Notes: a model not told the origin generated them from the sequence alone. A DNA stretch of 59,898 nt from Bdellovibrio sp. CG22_combo_CG10-13_8_21_14_all_39_27 (GCA_002786715.1 PCTW01000034.1:1-59898), one strand, 5' to 3'. Shown: positions 51,740 through 59,835, numbered from the stretch's first letter. Numbers and translations are program-made.

Positions 51740-52639
51740 TTGATTTTAGCTGATTCAGAACGCGACGCATTGTTAGAAATATTCCCACGCGGAGTGGTGG
51801 CCCTTGATATCGAGACAACTGGCCTCTCGCCGCTTGTCGACAAAATCATTGAATTATCAGCCTTTAAGGTAACTCCCGATGGAATTTCAACCTTCGACCA
51901 ATTAATAAATCCAGAAATTAAAATTCCTCAGTTCACTATCGATATCCATGGAATCAAAGACGAAGATGTGGCCAACATGCCCACAATTAAAGATGTCCTC
52001 CCCCACTTTGTTCAATTTGCAGATGATCTTCCCTTGATTGCTCACAACGCAAAATTTGATATTGGCTTTATTATTTTTTGGTTGCATCGAATGGGTATGA
52101 GTTTCAAATCAAATGAAGTTTATTGCTCTGTTAAGTATTCTCGCATGGTTTTTAAAACAGAAGTCGAAAACCACAAGCTTGGCACACTCGCTGAAACTCT
52201 CAATATTCCCTTACTTAATCATCACCGCGCCCTAGATGATGCCTATGCCTCCCTGATGATTTTTGCCAAAGGAATGATTAAGCAGAAACGAGACCAGGGA
52301 AAAGTCTATTTGGGCGAAAGCTTACTCTTTAAACTTTTTGACTTCAAAAAAAATAAAGACCTCGATATTCCTGAAAAGCTTATCGGGCTTATTTCTAAGA
52401 TTGAGAAGAAGCAAGTTATCGATATCAAATATAATGGCGGCAGCCGTCGCGGTGAATTTCGCCCTATAAGACCCATCTCGCTTCTCCCCCTTCCTGAGGG
52501 CAATGTTCTCTACGCCCATTGTCTAGAAAGCGATGTCTACAAGTCCTTTGCTCTTAAAAAAATTTCGGAGTTTCGAGAACTTAACGCCGACGAGCTGAAG
52601 AAGCGCTTAGATCAATTGGCAAAATCGAAAAAGAAATAA
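51740..52639 (+). CDS. DEDDh 3'-5' exonuclease with C-terminal WYL-like domain
   Basis: A 299-residue protein. Residues about 15-180 are a DnaQ/epsilon-type exonuclease: ALDIETTGLS (exo I), IAHNAKFDIGF (exo II), HHRALDDAYAS (exo III with the DEDDh His). Residues about 205-290 read like a WYL domain: ISKIEKKQVIDIKYNGGSRRGEFRPIRPISLL, VLYAHCLESDVYKSFALKKISEF. WYL domains usually sense nucleotides or nucleic acid ends in regulators. Start is TTG at 51740 with AAGGAAACC upstream. A small membrane protein follows 12 bp later. Confidence 0.8.
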   Translation: MILADSERDALLEIFPRGVVALDIETTGLSPLVDKIIELSAFKVTPDGISTFDQLINPEIKIPQFTIDIHGIKDEDVANMPTIKDVLPHFVQFADDLPLIAHNAKFDIGFIIFWLHRMGMSFKSNEVYCSVKYSRMVFKTEVENHKLGTLAETLNIPLLNHHRALDDAYASLMIFAKGMIKQKRDQGKVYLGESLLFKLFDFKKNKDLDIPEKLIGLISKIEKKQVIDIKYNGGSRRGEFRPIRPISLLPLPEGNVLYAHCLESDVYKSFALKKISEFRELNADELKKRLDQLAKSKKK

Positions 52640-52651
52640 TATACAGGTGTT

Positions 52652-52894
52652 ATGAAAAATTTCATCAATGCGTCGAACTGGTTTTACCGTCTCCAACAAT
52701 TGGTGATTCTCATTCTTCATTTCGTTCTTCTCTATTGGATGTTTTACGCCCTCACAGAGTCTGGAAGTCTAACGACTTTTGAAGTCTCTATGCACTTTGT
52801 AGGAATGGCGATTTTTGGAGCCTCACTTATTCGTGGCTGTGCCTATTGGGCCCGTTACCACCATCTCAAAGAACAAACTCAAAACCATGCTTGA
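52652..52894 (+). CDS. small membrane protein
   Basis: An 80-residue protein with two hydrophobic segments (LVILILHFVLLYWMFYAL and VSMHFVGMAIFGASLIRGCAYWA) and a hydrophilic tail. No family recognised. It sits between the exonuclease gene (12-bp gap) and the radical SAM gene, which its 3' end overlaps by 8 bp, so all three are likely co-transcribed. Confidence 0.6.
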   Translation: MKNFINASNWFYRLQQLVILILHFVLLYWMFYALTESGSLTTFEVSMHFVGMAIFGASLIRGCAYWARYHHLKEQTQNHA

Positions 52895-53903
52895 TTCATC
52901 TTTAGAATTTGAGAATGACTGGAGAGATGAATTCAAAAATTCATTTCGTTCAACTCACAAGCTCCATCAATTTCTAGGTTTTGAAATACCCAAAACAGAT
53001 TACCCCCTTTTTATTCCAGTACGATTGGCGCTAAAGATAAAAGAACTCGGCCAACAAAGCTCTCTTTGGAAGCAGTTTGTTCCTTCGACTTTGGAAAATG
53101 AGGATAAGGGACTTGTTGATCCGATTGGTGATCTCGTTCACTCAAAGCCAGGTCAACTCATCCACCGTTATCAAAATCGTGCTCTTTTTATGCCGACAAA
53201 TATATGTCCCGTTTTGTGCCGTTATTGCTTTCGCAAAAATGAACTCTTTAATGAAAAAGAACTCTTTGAGGCGAACTTAGTTGAAACGCAAAAATATCTT
53301 CTTGAGCACTCTGAAATCAATGAAATCATTTTCAGCGGTGGAGATCCTTTTATACTATCAGATGAAAAGCTTGCAAGTTACATAGATTTTTTTGCATCAA
53401 TTAAATCCATTAAGCATCTTCGCTTTCACACGCGAATACCTGTGATTTTGCCATCTCGAATTAATCAGCCACTGCTAGAGGTATTAAAAAAGTCCTCAGG
53501 ACATTTTGAAACTATTTCCATCGCCATTCATAGCAATCATGTCGATGAATGGGATCAAGAAATTGAAACTGCTATCATGAAGCTGAATCGCTTAGGTCTC
53601 CAATTGCTATCACAAACGGTTCTTTTAAAAGACGTCAATAACACGGCTCAAGACATAGTCAACTTAATGAACAAACTCGTTAAAAATAAAATTCGACCTT
53701 ACTATCTTCATCACCCCGATAGCGTAAAAGGAGGAATGCATTTTATGGTTCCCCTAGAAGAAGGTCGAAAAATATATTCAGAGCTTAGAGATCAATTACC
53801 CGGATGGGCCATTCCCCAATATATAATCGACCGACCAGATGGCCGAGGAAAACTCCCTGCTTTTAATCCTGAAAGTTTTAACTTTTCAGGTCAATTTATT
53901 TAA
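52887..53903 (+). CDS. KamA/EpmB-family radical SAM lysine aminomutase
   Basis: A 338-residue protein. The radical SAM cluster motif is CPVLCRYC (Cys107, Cys111, Cys114). FSGGDPFILSDEKL and HTRIPVILPSRI follow the lysine 2,3-aminomutase pattern, and the C-terminal HHPDSVKGGMHFMVPLEEG, GWAIPQYIIDRPDGRGKLP includes the PLP-related region. Length near 340 matches EpmB (EF-P beta-lysylation) rather than long KamA enzymes. The ATG at 52887 overlaps the preceding stop and the longer frame would add 24 unrelated residues. EpmA and EF-P are not in the window, so EpmB is likely but unproven. Confidence 0.85.
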   Translation: MLDSSLEFENDWRDEFKNSFRSTHKLHQFLGFEIPKTDYPLFIPVRLALKIKELGQQSSLWKQFVPSTLENEDKGLVDPIGDLVHSKPGQLIHRYQNRALFMPTNICPVLCRYCFRKNELFNEKELFEANLVETQKYLLEHSEINEIIFSGGDPFILSDEKLASYIDFFASIKSIKHLRFHTRIPVILPSRINQPLLEVLKKSSGHFETISIAIHSNHVDEWDQEIETAIMKLNRLGLQLLSQTVLLKDVNNTAQDIVNLMNKLVKNKIRPYYLHHPDSVKGGMHFMVPLEEGRKIYSELRDQLPGWAIPQYIIDRPDGRGKLPAFNPESFNFSGQFI

Positions 53904-54007
53904 TATTTTGTCCGAATTTGCACAAGATTGGACTATTGATCATTCATCTCTAGTGGCGATTCTCATATTCCCCTAAAATAGAATTTAAATCATACATTAG
54001 GGTAAAT

Positions 54008-54646
54008 ATGAATGACACGGTTGCTTCTTTTGCACATGATCTCAGAAATAAAGTTAATATTGTTATCGCCAATCTCGAGCTCTTTGAAAAGAAGATGGAA
54101 TCTGGATTAGCTTGGATTGATACTAAAACTTATTTTGAAAAATCAACGAAGACTTTGCTTACTCTAACTGAGTTTTTAGATGATATGGTCAATCATCATA
54201 TTGAAGTCGAGGTTTCGTTAAATGATTTAATAATCAAAGCTATTGAGACATTTAAAATGTCTCCACTTTTTATTGACTACCAGGTTATTGCATCACCCAT
54301 AGTAACAGTAAATAAAGTTCATATTGATCGTGTAATTTCTAATATTATTCAAAATTCAATTGAGCAAAATGCCACGAGTCTGCAAATTATTTTGAGAAAA
54401 AACTCCATTTCGTTTCATGATAATGGAGGAGGTATTAATTCGGAGGTGCTCTTAAAAATAAAAAGTGGAAGTAAAGCAAGCACCAAAACTCAAGGGCATG
54501 GATTAGGTCTTTTTAGCTTAAAAGACTTATGTGAGAAACATCATTGGAAACTTGAACTTCAAAATCGAAGCAGACATGATTGCCACCCTGTAAAGAACGG
54601 CCTTTTCATCATGATAACTTTTCCCAAGCCCGCATCACATGAGTAG
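54008..54646 (+). CDS. sensorless histidine kinase-like protein
   Basis: A 212-residue protein made only of a dimerisation/phosphoacceptor part (FAHDLRNKVNIV with His10) and a HATPase domain: N box IIQNSIEQNA, G1 HDNGGGI, G2 HGLGLFSLK. It has no sensor or membrane segment, so it must take signal from a partner or act on others in the cytoplasm. The start lies in a hairpin whose arms are CCCTAA and TTAGGG. Its 3' end overlaps the convergent ThiF-like gene by 38 bp. Confidence 0.82.
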   Translation: MNDTVASFAHDLRNKVNIVIANLELFEKKMESGLAWIDTKTYFEKSTKTLLTLTEFLDDMVNHHIEVEVSLNDLIIKAIETFKMSPLFIDYQVIASPIVTVNKVHIDRVISNIIQNSIEQNATSLQIILRKNSISFHDNGGGINSEVLLKIKSGSKASTKTQGHGLGLFSLKDLCEKHHWKLELQNRSRHDCHPVKNGLFIMITFPKPASHE

Positions 54647-55442
54647 TGGCTTTAAGACAAGTGGCATCAAGAGAAATAAATTCTGGCATGATGGGCGTAT
54701 GCTCAGGACTTAATTCGAGATAATCCAAAACAATTCGAGTCGCAACTATTGAATGCCCAAGAAGACAACTGGGGCCAAAAATCGGAACATTTCCGAGCTC
54801 TAATTCTCTGGTAAAATTTTCTAAAACAGTTTGATTCATATACTGTGGAGCTGGTCTCAAATAGGTTTTAATAATTCCTGAAACACGATTATCGTTAGTA
54901 AAGCAATCGGGATGATACATATCTTCAATTGTGTACTCACTTCCAATAAATTTATACAAATGAATTCCCATTCCAATCACGAAACTTGAATAGATTGGCA
55001 GCTTCAACGAATTGGCTTCACGGTGCAAATCGAGGTGAGCCTCTATAGGATAAACATCAATTTCATCGACAACAATATCAACGCCCGTTAAAAAATCACT
55101 AACCATGAGCGAATCGACACCTTGAGGATACATTTGGATCTCAATACTTGGATCAATAGAGAGGAGCATCACTTTTGTTTCTTCAATTTTTGATTTACCA
55201 ATATTTAATTTCGTTGCGATAACTTGCCGATTAATATTGCTCGCTTCAATAATGTCATTATCAGCGATTTTAAACTTCTTCACTCCTAGCCGAGCTAAAG
55301 TTTGGGCCACGCCTGAGCCCATGCCACCTAAGCCAGCAATGGCCACAGTCATTTGGCTTATTTTATTCTGACCTTCCTCTCCATTTATCCAAAAGTGATT
55401 TCTTATAGTTCTCGAATGGTAAAAATCAATTGTTGCTGTCAT
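54609..55442 (-). CDS. ThiF/MoeB/HesA-family E1-like adenylyltransferase
   Basis: A 277-residue protein. AIAGLGGMGSGVAQTLARLGVKKFKIADNDIIEASNINRQVI is the nucleotide-binding core of E1-like enzymes, with the R/N-rich NINRQ motif. VDIVVDEIDVYPIEAHLDLHREANSLKLPIYSS matches the central part. No CxxC pair typical of MoeB zinc binding is seen. The start at 55442 has GGAG 5 bases before ATG; a longer frame adds 12 residues without one. It could adenylate a C-terminal carboxylate of a partner protein or small molecule; none is obvious in the window. Confidence 0.82.
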   Translation of the reverse strand: MTATIDFYHSRTIRNHFWINGEEGQNKISQMTVAIAGLGGMGSGVAQTLARLGVKKFKIADNDIIEASNINRQVIATKLNIGKSKIEETKVMLLSIDPSIEIQMYPQGVDSLMVSDFLTGVDIVVDEIDVYPIEAHLDLHREANSLKLPIYSSFVIGMGIHLYKFIGSEYTIEDMYHPDCFTNDNRVSGIIKTYLRPAPQYMNQTVLENFTRELELGNVPIFGPSCLLGHSIVATRIVLDYLELSPEHTPIMPEFISLDATCLKATTHVMRAWEKLS

Positions 55443-55535
55443 AAAAACTCCGTGAAAATGAACTGTGTCATCATTCATCAGTTTTGCTTTTTTTCAGAGT
55501 AAATTTTTTTTTACCTAAATTAGATTTTTTTTAAC

Positions 55536-56354
55536 CTATTTAACCATGAGTTCTTTAAATGTTTGAAACCATGTGGAAAAGTCTGCGAAGTGGGCATAAT
55601 GACCTTCCGCTTTTGTTTCCAAATAATTTAATAATTCTGAACCTGACCATTTTTGCATGATTTCATCAGTCTTTAAGAATTGGTCAAAGCGAGAAATGAC
55701 GAGCGTCGTCTGAACACCCGCTTTATTGAGATTCTCGAGAATATCTAGTTCATTAGCAAATACAGCACTCCCAAGTGATTCACTTAAGCCACTTCTAAAG
55801 GCAGGGTCAGTCTTTTGGAAGTCCTGAGCTAATAATCCTTTCTCATCTTTTGAATTTGTAAGAGCAGTAAAGAGTGAGGTCACTTCATTGCTATTAGGAT
55901 TTTCAACGTAGAGATATTGAGACTGAGGGAGAGGTTGAAAAAAAGTAGCGACTTCTCCGAGGTCTTTGCCTGGAGAACATTGTACTAATATTAAATTCTG
56001 CGGCTTTACTTTTGCTGCAACTCTCAAAGCAATGTGCCCCCCCAGAGAATGACCAAGCAAATCGAATTTTTGCAAGTCTAAAGCGGTGATCACTTCCTGT
56101 ACAACACATGCCATGAATTCAAGATTGTAGTTATTTTTTTCGAAATGATTTGATTTTCCATGTCCAGGAAGGTCGATGCAATAAAAAGTATAATTTTCCA
56201 AAAGTATTTTTTCTTTAATCAATTTGGAAAAGGATAAATGTGAAGAAGAGTTTCCGTGGATGAGCACGAGAGCCTTCCCTCCATGCCCACTTACTTGAAC
56301 ATTAACAGAACCTTTGGAAGTATTGATAATCTGCATGCTTGTCAATCCCATCAT
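55536..56354 (-). CDS. alpha/beta hydrolase
   Basis: A 272-residue cytoplasmic-looking alpha/beta hydrolase. VLIHGNSSSHLS (oxyanion, His33-Gly34-Asn35), FYCIDLPGHGKS, the nucleophile elbow GHSLGGH (Ser103), VISRFDQFL (acid) and AEGHYAHFAD (His) form the triad. The start at 56354 follows AAGGA; the longer frame is leader sequence. It is divergent from the acyltransferase-like gene across 76 bp. Lactonase, thioesterase or esterase roles are possible. Confidence 0.8.
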   Translation of the reverse strand: MMGLTSMQIINTSKGSVNVQVSGHGGKALVLIHGNSSSHLSFSKLIKEKILLENYTFYCIDLPGHGKSNHFEKNNYNLEFMACVVQEVITALDLQKFDLLGHSLGGHIALRVAAKVKPQNLILVQCSPGKDLGEVATFFQPLPQSQYLYVENPNSNEVTSLFTALTNSKDEKGLLAQDFQKTDPAFRSGLSESLGSAVFANELDILENLNKAGVQTTLVISRFDQFLKTDEIMQKWSGSELLNYLETKAEGHYAHFADFSTWFQTFKELMVK

Positions 56355-56409
56355 TTTTTCCTTTTTACGATTCAAACACAAAAATAAAAGAAAGAACATG
56401 ATTGTCTTT

Positions 56410-56421
56410 CAACTTAAGTTG
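56410..56421. promoter_or_regulatory. 12-bp palindrome before the acyltransferase-like gene
   Basis: CAACTTAAGTTG (56410-56421) is a perfect palindrome 4 bp before the GAGG ribosome binding site and start of the gene at 56431. It lies in the 76-bp gap between two divergent genes and could bind one of the HTH proteins encoded downstream. Confidence 0.4.
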
Positions 56422-56430
56422 CGAGGCTTT

Positions 56431-57159
56431 ATGAACCAACCCTATAATATCATTCACCTAGAATCGCCCTACGAAACTTTAAGTAAATTAGAAGGCCAAT
56501 ACCTTTTCTCAAAGATCTTGGCCTGTCGTTTAAAATCCTACCAACAGCGTTATGGAAACCAGGTCTTTCCTTTTGGCCCTGAAGATTTTCTGAGTGATAT
56601 AGTTGCGATTCAAAGGAACTGCAATCAACAAATCGTTGCGACCTTTAAATATGTCAGTTTCTTATCATGTCAAAATTTTTCAGTAGAGTTTCCTCTGTTC
56701 CATACCATTCAAGACCCTATCAATGACAAGTTCCATCACGAGCTCGTTTCAAATTGGATGTCACAAAATGAAAATTCTAATAAGCAATTTGCCTATATGG
56801 GATCATTTACCAATTATCAGGATTCTCGTCTTGAGATTGATGAAAGAAGATTAATCAAAGATTTGATTACCACTGCCATCGTAGGAATCGTTTTAAGTAA
56901 AAAGATTGATCACATTATCGTTACCGGTATCATTCCAAATGGAGCTTCGAATTATATTCAATGGTTAGGTTTTGAAAAGCTTTGTGAAGAAGTTGTGCTG
57001 GTAAAAGATATCAATCAATCACCGGCCCATATTCTCGTTCTCAATGAATTTTCGAAGGCAAGTCTTTCACTTTATGATAAATACCGAAGTTTTTGGGACG
57101 AGAGAAATTGCATCTCTGTTGAAAACTCAGAAATTAAAGGAAAAGACGAGGCTGCTTAG
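56431..57159 (+). CDS. GNAT/LuxI-like N-acyltransferase candidate
   Basis: A 242-residue protein without a confident family. The first part has R/Y-rich helix then FGPEDFLSDIVAIQ, IVATFKYVSF (a GNAT-like beta2-beta3), then the helical DERRLIKDLITTAIVGIVLSKKIDHIIVTG and NYIQWLGFEKL, the pattern seen in GNAT-fold N-acyl amino acid synthases (FeeM) and acyl-homoserine lactone synthases. If so, it makes an acylated small molecule from acyl-ACP. ATG at 56431 is chosen because GAGG precedes it. Overlaps the convergent HTH gene by 26 bp. Confidence 0.55.
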   Translation: MNQPYNIIHLESPYETLSKLEGQYLFSKILACRLKSYQQRYGNQVFPFGPEDFLSDIVAIQRNCNQQIVATFKYVSFLSCQNFSVEFPLFHTIQDPINDKFHHELVSNWMSQNENSNKQFAYMGSFTNYQDSRLEIDERRLIKDLITTAIVGIVLSKKIDHIIVTGIIPNGASNYIQWLGFEKLCEEVVLVKDINQSPAHILVLNEFSKASLSLYDKYRSFWDERNCISVENSEIKGKDEAA

Positions 57160-58033
57160 GATCATCTATTTTCCACTCAAACAAAGTGTAATCTTCTCCC
57201 GAATAAAGATTTTTTGTTAATGTCGAGTTGGGAAATTTTTCATTGCGACTAAAGTAGCCAACCGTGGAACCAAATCCCAATGAATAAATACAAGTATACT
57301 TATTGCCATAACTCTTCTTCTTTAACGTATCCTGTAATTTATGGGAAAGTGTTTTCTTAACGATAGCTTTTTCAGACGTAAGCTTTATCATTTCGTAGTT
57401 ATATGATTGCTCAACATTATTTGCAACTTCTTCTAAAAAGCAGGAATAACTATCTAAAATAGAAAAATTATTAAACTTTTTGGCGAAAGCTGATTCTTTG
57501 TTTTCAAATGCAGTTTGTTGCCCCAGCCAAAAAAGATCTTCTTCACTGAATCCGAATCCCTTAACTAGCATTGCGTATAAAGCACCGTAGAGCTCCGTGC
57601 TTACAAATTCACATTCCGTATCAGGTGTAAAAAATTGCGATCCGATTTGCAGGGATAAACAGAGTTGTTGACAAAATCCAGGGCCAATATTTTCGTTCAA
57701 GATTTTTAACAGAACGGATCCAATTCGACGAGATGAGAATGCTCCGATCTGATATTCCATTGGGGCCAAATCGCGATGACCCATGAGATATTGTAGGCAG
57801 ACATAATGATCAACTTTTTGATAAACTAAATTCAATGAATTAATGCCTAAATGAGAAATAATTTGTTCAAACCTGTCGAAAGGAAGACTCTTTCCAAGGT
57901 ATAATCTTCTCCATTCATTTCTGGTGACGCCAAGGCGATCTTGCAGTTCATTACCGAGGCAGTCTTTTAAATAAATAATGAGTTCATTAAATTTCTCTAG
58001 TGGAGTTTTTTCATTTGGATTTTTAAAAACCAT
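57134..58033 (-). CDS. HTH regulator-like protein with long unassigned C-terminal domain
   Basis: A 299-residue protein. Residues about 25-70 look like a diverged helix-turn-helix (LGNELQDRLGVTRNEWRRLYLGKSLPFDRFEQIISHL). The rest (about 80-299) is unassigned: EYQIGAFSSRRIGSVLLKILNENIGPGFCQQLCLSLQIGSQFF looks like a V4R/ligand-sensor-type fold, but this is weak. It contains six or more cysteines. GAAGGAGG precedes the ATG, and it starts inside the preceding HTH gene (37-bp overlap), so the two are coupled. Confidence 0.6.
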   Translation of the reverse strand: MVFKNPNEKTPLEKFNELIIYLKDCLGNELQDRLGVTRNEWRRLYLGKSLPFDRFEQIISHLGINSLNLVYQKVDHYVCLQYLMGHRDLAPMEYQIGAFSSRRIGSVLLKILNENIGPGFCQQLCLSLQIGSQFFTPDTECEFVSTELYGALYAMLVKGFGFSEEDLFWLGQQTAFENKESAFAKKFNNFSILDSYSCFLEEVANNVEQSYNYEMIKLTSEKAIVKKTLSHKLQDTLKKKSYGNKYTCIYSLGFGSTVGYFSRNEKFPNSTLTKNLYSGEDYTLFEWKIDDPKQPRLFL

Positions 58034-58815
58034 GAATCCTCCTTCTTTGAAATGTTAATAGTTGCATTTTTATTTAAAAGCGACATGCACCATGCTCTTG
58101 CCCACTCCCCTACAAAATCTCCAATAATAGCATCATTGAAATAAAGATCTTTGTTGATAAATGGACGAGGTTTGAAACTAAGTGTTGATGACAATGCTTT
58201 TTGGTCAAAGTTGAAACTTGCAGTGTGGTTTTGAGTATTTGAGGCCCAACTCTCCAGCAACGTCACAAATCTTGAGTGAACTTGTGTTTCGCTATACCAA
58301 GTCCATCTTTGTCCCCACCACATAGGGTCATTGCATAAAGCAGATGAGAAATCTAAGAGTTGTTTCTCAGTTATGAGCTCGCCATTCATTTTTAACCATT
58401 GAACCATTCTTAAAAAGAGATCGAAGGGATAAAACCGAACTTTGTCTTTAAGTAATAATGGTTCCACTCTTTCTGTTTTCCAAAAATGACGTAAGCTTTC
58501 ATGACCCAACTTTAAAACAATCCACTTTTCAAATTCTGAAACAAAACGAAAACCAATTTGTCCTTGATTCTTATATTGTTGAGGAAGAGCTTGCTGAAAA
58601 TCATTAAAGTGAGCTCTGGCCCTGCGATTAGAAGTGGTCCTGGCCACCCAATCTGGAAATTGAATTTTGAATTGAAACCATTCATCGTGAGAAAGTTCTA
58701 ACAATCCTGTCTCAAGACGAGACAGGATTGATCGAGAGCAATTTAGTCGACTTGCCATTTCTTCTTGCGACAAATTATTTAAATTGCGAATGAATTTGAT
58801 ATCCTCTGGTCCCAT
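57997..58815 (-). CDS. XRE-family HTH protein with long unassigned C-terminal domain
   Basis: A 272-residue protein. Residues about 5-55 are a clear XRE/lambda-type helix-turn-helix (IKFIRNLNNLSQEEMASRLNCSRSILSRLETGLLELS). The remaining 215 residues are aromatic-rich (WKTERVEPLLLKDKVRFYPFDLF, DPMWWGQRWTWY, FVGEWARAWCMSLL) and not assigned to a family; the same broad design as its downstream partner suggests a shared sensor fold. GGAG precedes the ATG. First gene of the pair. Confidence 0.7.
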   Translation of the reverse strand: MGPEDIKFIRNLNNLSQEEMASRLNCSRSILSRLETGLLELSHDEWFQFKIQFPDWVARTTSNRRARAHFNDFQQALPQQYKNQGQIGFRFVSEFEKWIVLKLGHESLRHFWKTERVEPLLLKDKVRFYPFDLFLRMVQWLKMNGELITEKQLLDFSSALCNDPMWWGQRWTWYSETQVHSRFVTLLESWASNTQNHTASFNFDQKALSSTLSFKPRPFINKDLYFNDAIIGDFVGEWARAWCMSLLNKNATINISKKEDSWFLKIQMKKLH

Positions 58816-59012
58816 TTCACTCCATTATTAAAATAACCATAATTGAAAAAGACTGGCTTTGACTAGCTTTCGAGCCCATTGCCGCAAGCGTTGCGTCATA
58901 AACACTCTGCATTTGCACAGATTCTGAAGAATTATGGGACCTCCCTGATTTTCACTTATCCTCTTGGCTATAATTCCCCTTAACTCTCTCCCTCTCTAAA
59001 CAGGATGTTTGT

Positions 59013-59669
59013 ATGCGAGAATTAAAGAAGATTTGGATATTTGAACCTAACAAAGTGCAGCAAGATAGTTATCGCTTTGATCTCGAGGATAATTTTGATG
59101 TCACGTTTTTTGATCATCCACGTCTAGGGTTAATTGAGTATCTTAAGACCCCCAAACCTGACCTTATTTTAAGTGACACTCACTTTGATGGACAACAAGG
59201 TGAGCTTTCGCAATGGATTCACGATTTTTCCCCTGTCGATATTTGGCTTATTCCCTCTGATACCGATCTCAACAACCTCAGAAAATACCAGTCAGCGGGC
59301 ATCAATACATTCATTTCTAAAAATCTTGAAACAAACCTTTTGCTTATAAGTCTTGAAAACTATTTTTCAAAAAGAGAACAACAATCTTCGATGACTGAAT
59401 TGAAGATTGGCAATCACACGATTAAAGATCTCACAAGAACTCAATACAAAATCATTGGGCTATTCCTCGAGCGAAGAGACCGAGAGGTTTCTCGCGAAGA
59501 ATTTCAAAAGAAAATTTGGGGAAATCAGACTGTTCACCACAAAAACTTAAACGTTCAACTGCACCTGTTGCGAAAAAAATTAAATCAATTTCAAATTGAT
59601 ATAAAATCTTTAAAACCTGGCCATTGGACCTTGTGCAGCCATAATGAAGTCCCACGGGTCCAAATATAA
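59013..59669 (+). CDS. OmpR-type response regulator with atypical receiver
   Basis: A 218-residue protein. The receiver (about 6-115) keeps the phosphoacceptor (LILSDTHFDG, Asp55), a Ser where the usual Thr sits (IPSDTD) and the Lys (FISKN), but the N-terminal acidic pair is Glu-Pro instead of Asp-Asp. Residues about 125-215 are a winged helix (LTRTQYKIIGLFLERRDREVSREEFQKKIWGN, NVQLHLLRKKL). A TATAAT box (58969-58974) is 38 bp upstream of the start. It may be phosphorylated by the kinase at 54008, but no pairing is shown. Confidence 0.85.
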   Translation: MRELKKIWIFEPNKVQQDSYRFDLEDNFDVTFFDHPRLGLIEYLKTPKPDLILSDTHFDGQQGELSQWIHDFSPVDIWLIPSDTDLNNLRKYQSAGINTFISKNLETNLLLISLENYFSKREQQSSMTELKIGNHTIKDLTRTQYKIIGLFLERRDREVSREEFQKKIWGNQTVHHKNLNVQLHLLRKKLNQFQIDIKSLKPGHWTLCSHNEVPRVQI

Positions 59670-59759: not shown

Positions 59760-59835
59760 GCGGGTATAGCTCAGTTGGTAGAGCGTCTGCTTGCCATGCA
59801 GAAGGTCGCCCGTTCGAATCGGGTTACCCGCTCCA
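59760..59835 (+). tRNA. tRNA-Gly (anticodon GCC)
   Basis: GCGGGTA pairs with TACCCGC in the acceptor stem. The D arm is GCTCAGTTGGTAGAGC, the anticodon arm TCTGC-TTGCCAT-GCAGA carries GCC, and the T arm contains GTTCGAAT. CCA is encoded (59833-59835). Seventy-six bases, no intron. Confidence 0.97.

Follow-up and report, generated by a model that had tools for sequence, protein, structure and literature searches.

A gene cluster of Bdellovibrionota with a predicted LuxI/FeeM-fold acyltransferase, paired HTH regulators and interchangeable ThiF or methyltransferase genes: a candidate acyl-signal circuit

In LuxI/LuxR systems, a LuxI-fold synthase adjoins a DNA-binding regulator carrying a ligand-type domain, both being paired one to one. 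A FeeM/LuxI-fold N-acyltransferase adjoining a ThiF cyclase forms the core of OxzAB from Pseudoalteromonas and of TyzABC and TrzAS from mycobacteria, and TyzB and TrzS, two homologues of ThiF, use ATP to close N-acyl amino acids to a ring (PMC10404671, PMC12856293). Here we describe a gene cluster at positions 53904-59669 of a 59,898-nt stretch of DNA (hereafter the window) from Bdellovibrio sp. CG22_combo_CG10-13_8_21_14_all_39_27 (GCA_002786715.1 PCTW01000034.1:1-59898), which looks like a chemical communication circuit not described before. The cluster resembles LuxI/LuxR in the one-to-one pairing of a predicted LuxI-fold synthase with an adjoining regulator and, in other loci, in the palindromic candidate operators of its own promoters. 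It differs in that the receptor candidate is a pair of proteins with an XRE-like helix-turn-helix (HTH) and an H-NOX/V4R fold instead of LuxR, in that a ThiF or a methyltransferase accompanies the synthase, and possibly in that the synthase escapes the LuxI Pfam model. With OxzAB, TyzABC and TrzAS it shares the acyltransferase and ThiF core, but the Bdellovibrionota cluster has no nitroreductase-type oxidase, its ThiF is replaceable by a methyltransferase, and it carries a dedicated regulator pair, a hydrolase, a histidine kinase and a response regulator. Since LuxR and nitroreductase, a defining feature of each system, are both missing, the cluster is not a member of either. In the open-access papers searched there was no description of quorum sensing or LuxI in Bdellovibrio, of V4R receptors, of FeeM clusters with regulators or of acyl amino acids in Bdellovibrionota. 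We favour the reading, at a probability of about 0.6, that the locus is an autoregulated acyl-amino-acid signal circuit, LuxI/LuxR-like in its working and with an unrelated receptor. The direct results are the folds predicted for synthase and sensor domain, the conserved pairing, the alternation of ThiF and methyltransferase and an operator common to other loci.

The synthase (56431-57159, plus strand) and one of the regulators, HTH_B, gave no Pfam match in the protein scan and were therefore the two proteins that needed resolution. Comparison of the synthase sequence with Pfam, NCBIfam, PHROGs, PADLOC and PDB sequences was of no help, nor was a profile search of the PDB sequences. Autoind_synth (PF00765) had no match in the synthase or in its genome, and 14 control genomes gave none either. 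A model of the protein was obtained with AlphaFold2 from an alignment of 19 relatives showing 15-33% identity to it, with a mean pLDDT (predicted local distance difference test) of 91.5. FeeM (2g0b) was ranked first by Foldseek (E 2.7e-7) and, after structural re-alignment with VIA-align, it shared the best score with BjaI (5w8c), with Z 16.7 over 176 residues for the former and Z 16.7 over 191 residues for the latter. RpaI (Z 16.3), LasI (Z 15.3), TofI and MesI were the next matches, EsaI was also matched, and ordinary acetyltransferases scored lower (Z 12-15). With BjaI and FeeM level at the top and the acetyltransferases below them, the modelled fold of the synthase is LuxI/FeeM-like, with the three layers of LuxI/GNAT proteins, a fold from which the acyl acceptor is not readable. 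The GNAT/LuxI-like acyltransferase proposed in a previous annotation of the window, made from its sequence alone (hereafter the sequence-only reading), is thus borne out by the comparison of the predicted structure with those of FeeM and LuxI proteins.

One alternative is a classical acyl-homoserine-lactone synthase using S-adenosylmethionine (SAM) together with a non-LuxR receptor, as the structural matches include BjaI, RpaI, LasI, TofI and EsaI. However, FeeM scores equally well, and such a synthase would leave ThiF or the carboxyl methyltransferase without a task, yet at least one of them lies near the synthase in 72 of the 82 Bdellovibrionota loci compared. We regard this explanation as very improbable and the least probable of those considered, and FeeM is the better functional template. 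The window synthase is about 12% identical to FeeM, exceeds the FeeM chain by about 60 residues, is clustered with regulators and tailoring enzymes and has a putative N-acyl amino acid synthase activity.

The C-terminal end of the synthase was surveyed in the window protein (57130-57156) and in 84 synthase open reading frames (ORFs) from loci L021-L135. A small or aliphatic residue followed by Ala terminated 82% of the synthases versus 4% of 936 background ORFs, and Ala-Ala was the end of 58% versus 2% (p 2e-43). This Ala-Ala end sits on a tail predicted as disordered in the AlphaFold2 model, and the tag encoded by the transfer-messenger RNA (tmRNA) of the same genome (ADSFDSVAMAA) ends in Ala-Ala too. 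The tail resembles an ssrA-type degron, and a reasonable guess from these sequences is that it serves as a protease degron restricting the half-life of the synthase. The ThiF proteins showed a milder bias, 45% of them having a final Ala.

HTH_B (57134-58033, minus strand) and its paralogue HTH_A (57997-58815, minus strand; HTH_3, 2.5e-6) are full-length homologues, as indicated by a profile-profile match over 280 columns with a probability of 99.7. The AlphaFold2 model of HTH_B (pLDDT 91.1) consists of an N-terminal HTH region and a C-terminal domain (residues 100-293), which was closest by Z to the H-NOX of Nostoc (Z 14.4 over 173 residues), followed by the N-terminal domain of VirS (Z 11.6), Bet3/TRAPPC3, one of whose structures is palmitate-bound (Z about 10), and the domains with which PoxR and MopR sense phenols (Z about 9.5). 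The V4R model (PF02830) gave a weak match in 2 of 20 members of the regulator family (best E 3e-4) and none in the window member. Among 80 regulator proteins no conserved His was found (22% in the best column), and the YxSxR motif was present in 2 of them. None of the regulators beside the synthase contained the LuxR domains (Autoind_bind plus GerE); these proteins combine the HTH with the H-NOX/V4R fold. These matches thus assign the sensor-like domains to an H-NOX/V4R/Bet3-type fold without heme motifs, which would accommodate a hydrophobic ligand. Their sensor-like character, noticed in the sequence-only reading, is retained, whereas they can no longer be called unassigned. The predicted fold is shared with the H-NOX, V4R and XylR_N sensor domains, from which the window regulator differs by the lack of a heme motif, the fusion to an N-terminal HTH, the occurrence as a paralogous pair and the great divergence.

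The fold also allows a different explanation, namely that the regulators respond to heme, to nitric oxide or to an aromatic compound from the environment, the product of the acyltransferase being protective or housekeeping and the adjacency reflecting regulation by an outside cue. H-NOX is the closest structure by Z, and the phenol sensors MopR and PoxR have the same fold; but the heme His and the YxSxR motif are not conserved, and the joint divergence of synthase and regulator, at about 20% identity, is not explained by an outside cue. We therefore consider this explanation hardly probable.

Synthase homologues were detected in 51 of 129 genomes of the family to which the window belongs (25 of 48 genera) and, in a sample of the phylum, in 78 of 291 (47 of 162 genera), mostly in single copy. 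Relatives found through ThiF belonged to Bacteriovoracaceae, Halobacteriovoraceae, Bdellovibrionaceae and Pseudobdellovibrio. When a genome collection was scanned with the ThiF alignment, a synthase and a regulator beside ThiF were encountered only in Bdellovibrionota, and the more distant ThiF proteins of other phyla had neither of them adjoining. A regulator of the HTH_B family was located at 5 kb or less from the synthase in 77 of the 82 loci, being directly adjacent in 66. The window genome contains a single synthase and a single full-length regulator of this family, and these are adjacent, which indicates that the pairing is not due to chance. In addition, synthase and regulator distances were correlated (r 0.72; 0 of 2000 permutations). 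One locus (L021) carries all seven window genes, so that the neighbours are conserved together in relatives, the conservation asked for in the sequence-only reading. In another locus (L028:7492-9402), deoxyhypusine synthase-like and RimK-like ATP-grasp genes lie beside the synthase, with no regulator within that contig stretch.

ThiF and METHYLTRANSFERASE alternate among loci. The ThiF-type adenylating enzyme of the window is encoded at 54609-55478 on the minus strand (PF00899, 1.6e-35). Near the synthase, ThiF is present in 31 of the 82 loci and a class I SAM methyltransferase in 42, with ThiF only in 30, the methyltransferase only in 41, both in one and neither in 10 (Fisher p 1e-12). Of these last 10 loci, L039 encodes a methyltransferase other than the profiled one, and L024 and L091 lie near the ends of their contigs. 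Mapping of the ThiF/methyltransferase label on the synthase tree required 7 changes, at least 5 of them forced by well-supported branches, indicating that the swap has recurred. Loci L074 (ThiF) and L076 (methyltransferase) come from one genus, and their synthases are 59% identical. The window (ThiF) and L036 (methyltransferase) have downstream chromosomal genes in common at about 52% identity. Exonuclease and KamA/EpmB-like radical SAM genes flank the cluster in the window (51740-53903) and hold the same position in L036; for this reason, the ThiF/methyltransferase cassette may have been exchanged in place.

The residues for adenylation and ATP binding are conserved in ThiF (the glycine loop GLGGMGS, NxNRQ, Asn81, Arg84, Lys97, Asp138 and Asp141), and no invariant Cys was found in eight aligned ThiF proteins. 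A ubiquitin-like partner was not found among the cluster proteins scanned, a scan that did not cover small ORFs. The conserved adenylation residues and the lack of an invariant Cys fit a cyclisation better than a ubiquitin-like transfer, and ThiF is predicted to activate or cyclise the carboxylate of an N-acyl amino acid. By analogy, ThiF and the methyltransferase can both mask this carboxylate, the latter presumably by ester formation. The chemistry predicted for the methyltransferase variants is that of the N-acyl alanine methyl esters occurring in Roseovarius, which are structural analogues of homoserine lactone signals and for which the paper names no candidate synthase genes (PMC11580390). 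In view of OxzAB, TyzABC and TrzAS, the statement of the sequence-only reading that known circuits leave no room for the E1 enzyme does not hold.

The alpha/beta hydrolase (55536-56399, minus strand, with a more likely start at 56354 or 56351; Abhydrolase_1, 4.6e-18) has the nucleophile elbow GHSLG and candidate Asp and His residues, and a gene of this type occurs near the synthase in 40 of the 82 loci. It is a candidate signal degrader, a biosynthetic role being equally possible. Other enzymes fit a product made of an acyl chain and an amino acid: an acyl-CoA dehydrogenase in tandem with the synthase (L029, L103 and L108), a fatty acid desaturase in the L124 cluster and a pyridoxal phosphate-dependent enzyme adjoining ThiF (L035, L107 and L109). 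An argininosuccinate synthase-like gene (L040:8113-9273) shows a 4-bp overlap with the synthase start and possibly supplies or modifies an amino acid head group.

Candidate operators were searched for by unbiased enumeration of all palindromes with 5-bp arms upstream of the cluster genes, using background genes of the same loci for comparison. The top palindrome, ATTCC-N4-GGAAT, was present in 32 of 383 cluster promoters (16 loci) versus 4 of 934 others (p 4.5e-14, with divergent promoters counted twice), and the enrichment of these arms was restricted to the 4-bp gap. The sites are located 10-60 bp upstream of synthase, regulator, ThiF, methyltransferase, histidine kinase, hydrolase and response regulator genes, with several per cluster; loci such as L072 and L073 have a palindromic candidate operator before the kinase gene. 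Of the 14 exact extended sites in ten whole genomes, 9 were inside clusters; three of the five outside lay within coding sequence (G000, G044 and G003) and were set aside, and two were in promoters. One of these (G021, contig C19; L181:2486-2501) is a cluster-type site 56 bp upstream of a remote response regulator related to that of the clusters, which ties the cluster response regulator to the circuit. The other (G114, contig C7; L178:2796-2811) precedes an FkbM-type methyltransferase gene. Judging from these sites, both genes are candidate regulon members. A palindrome common to the promoters of the window itself was searched for and none was found. A perfect 12-bp palindrome, CAACTTAAGTTG (56410-56421), detected by a palindrome scan 9 bp before the window synthase, is the only copy in the genome and a candidate operator, although a palindrome of 12 bp could be due to chance. 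A near-perfect 20-bp palindrome, AATATGCACTGGTGCATATT, lies between HTH_A and the hydrolase in locus L022 (12387-12406) and may serve as operator in the clade to which the window is nearest.

The cluster has the layout expected of an autoinducer circuit: a synthase paired with one receptor-like regulator, candidate operators directed at the cluster itself in related loci, a predicted head-group chemistry that varies and a putatively unstable synthase. In the circuit that we favour, the 56431 enzyme would couple an acyl chain to an amino acid, and ThiF would then adenylate the carboxylate left free in this N-acyl amino acid and close a lactone- or oxazolone-like ring, so that the charge is masked; in other lineages the SAM methyltransferase would do the equivalent job by methyl-ester capping of the carboxylate. 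Being neutral, the acyl compound would occupy the H-NOX/V4R-fold pocket of the paired HTH regulators, and the pair would bind palindromic operators in the promoters of the cluster, thereby controlling the synthase, the tailoring enzyme, the regulators and the kinase/response regulator pair, while the hydrolase would remove or finish the signal. The substrates, the product, the ligand, the operator-binding protein and the secretion are those that we infer.

The main rival of this circuit is an oxazolone-type specialised-metabolite (lipid) pathway with identical enzymology, whose product would be a membrane lipid, an antibiotic or a stress compound and whose HTH pair would be an ordinary pathway regulator sensing an intermediate or another cue; the only difference is whether cell-to-cell sensing of the product takes place. 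The physiological role of OxzAB, TyzABC and TrzAS, which have the same core, is not settled, and planctomycete N-acyl tyrosines act as antimicrobials (PMC7293339). However, a regulator pair of a single family accompanies the synthase through all tailoring variants, the operator is mostly within the cluster itself, which is a feedback layout, and no exporter or resistance gene recurs. We consider such a pathway unlikely, at roughly one chance in four.

Several points weigh against the signal circuit. The window locus and those most closely related to it have no ATTCC-N4-GGAAT. Heme, phenols and palmitate are further ligands of the sensor fold. No nitroreductase (PF00881) is encoded on the window contig (C10), the two PF00881 genes of the genome being on contigs C34 and C87. 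A stable oxazolone of the unsaturated kind is therefore not to be expected, and the saturated kind is chemically labile. Plain co-inheritance would also yield correlated synthase and regulator distances, and the loci are related, hence the Fisher and permutation values overstate independence. An acyl-signal circuit, as proposed in the sequence-only reading, stays the best reading, and the synthase type, the adjoining regulator and the conservation of the set are supported as well; the E1 enzyme is no longer out of place.

We give even odds to the broader view that these loci form a phylum-wide quorum-sensing family of Bdellovibrionota, in which paired HTH/H-NOX-fold receptors respond to acyl-amino-acid autoinducers and ThiF/methyltransferase cassettes are exchanged to alter the chemical identity of the signal. 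If true, this phylum, known for predators, would have a dedicated communication circuit, acyl signals would gain a new class of receptors, and lineages that exchange the head-group chemistry of a signal would provide a natural experiment. This view would also predict biosynthetic genes for the methyl-ester relatives of homoserine lactones, whose synthase genes are reported as unknown in Roseovarius (PMC11580390), and coordination of predatory bacteria could become directly testable by gene deletion.

The seven genes named in the sequence-only reading are all present and their family calls hold, the HATPase_c, ThiF, Abhydrolase_1, HTH_3 and Trans_reg_C matches exceeding the Pfam cut-offs. A defence-system reading was rejected, because PADLOC matches came only via the generic ThiF and HTH domains. 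The soluble histidine kinase (54008-54646, plus strand; 212 amino acids; HATPase_c 1.3e-12 and a weak HisKA) has no sensor domain, and similar kinases of about 213 amino acids occur in loci L021, L027, L031, L072 and L091. The OmpR-type response regulator (59013-59669, plus strand; Trans_reg_C, 1.1e-8) is a likely circuit member, and regulators of its family are found in the clusters of L021, L023, L038 and L040. The layout is compact: 3'-end overlaps join the kinase gene to that of ThiF (54609-54646) and the synthase gene to that of HTH_B (57134-57159), and the HTH_A and HTH_B genes, which run in the same direction, show a translational overlap (57997-58033). A tmRNA gene (164-536) and a tRNA-Gly(gcc) gene (59760-59832) are located at the two ends of the window, and an apparent tmRNA is also present near the cluster of L022.

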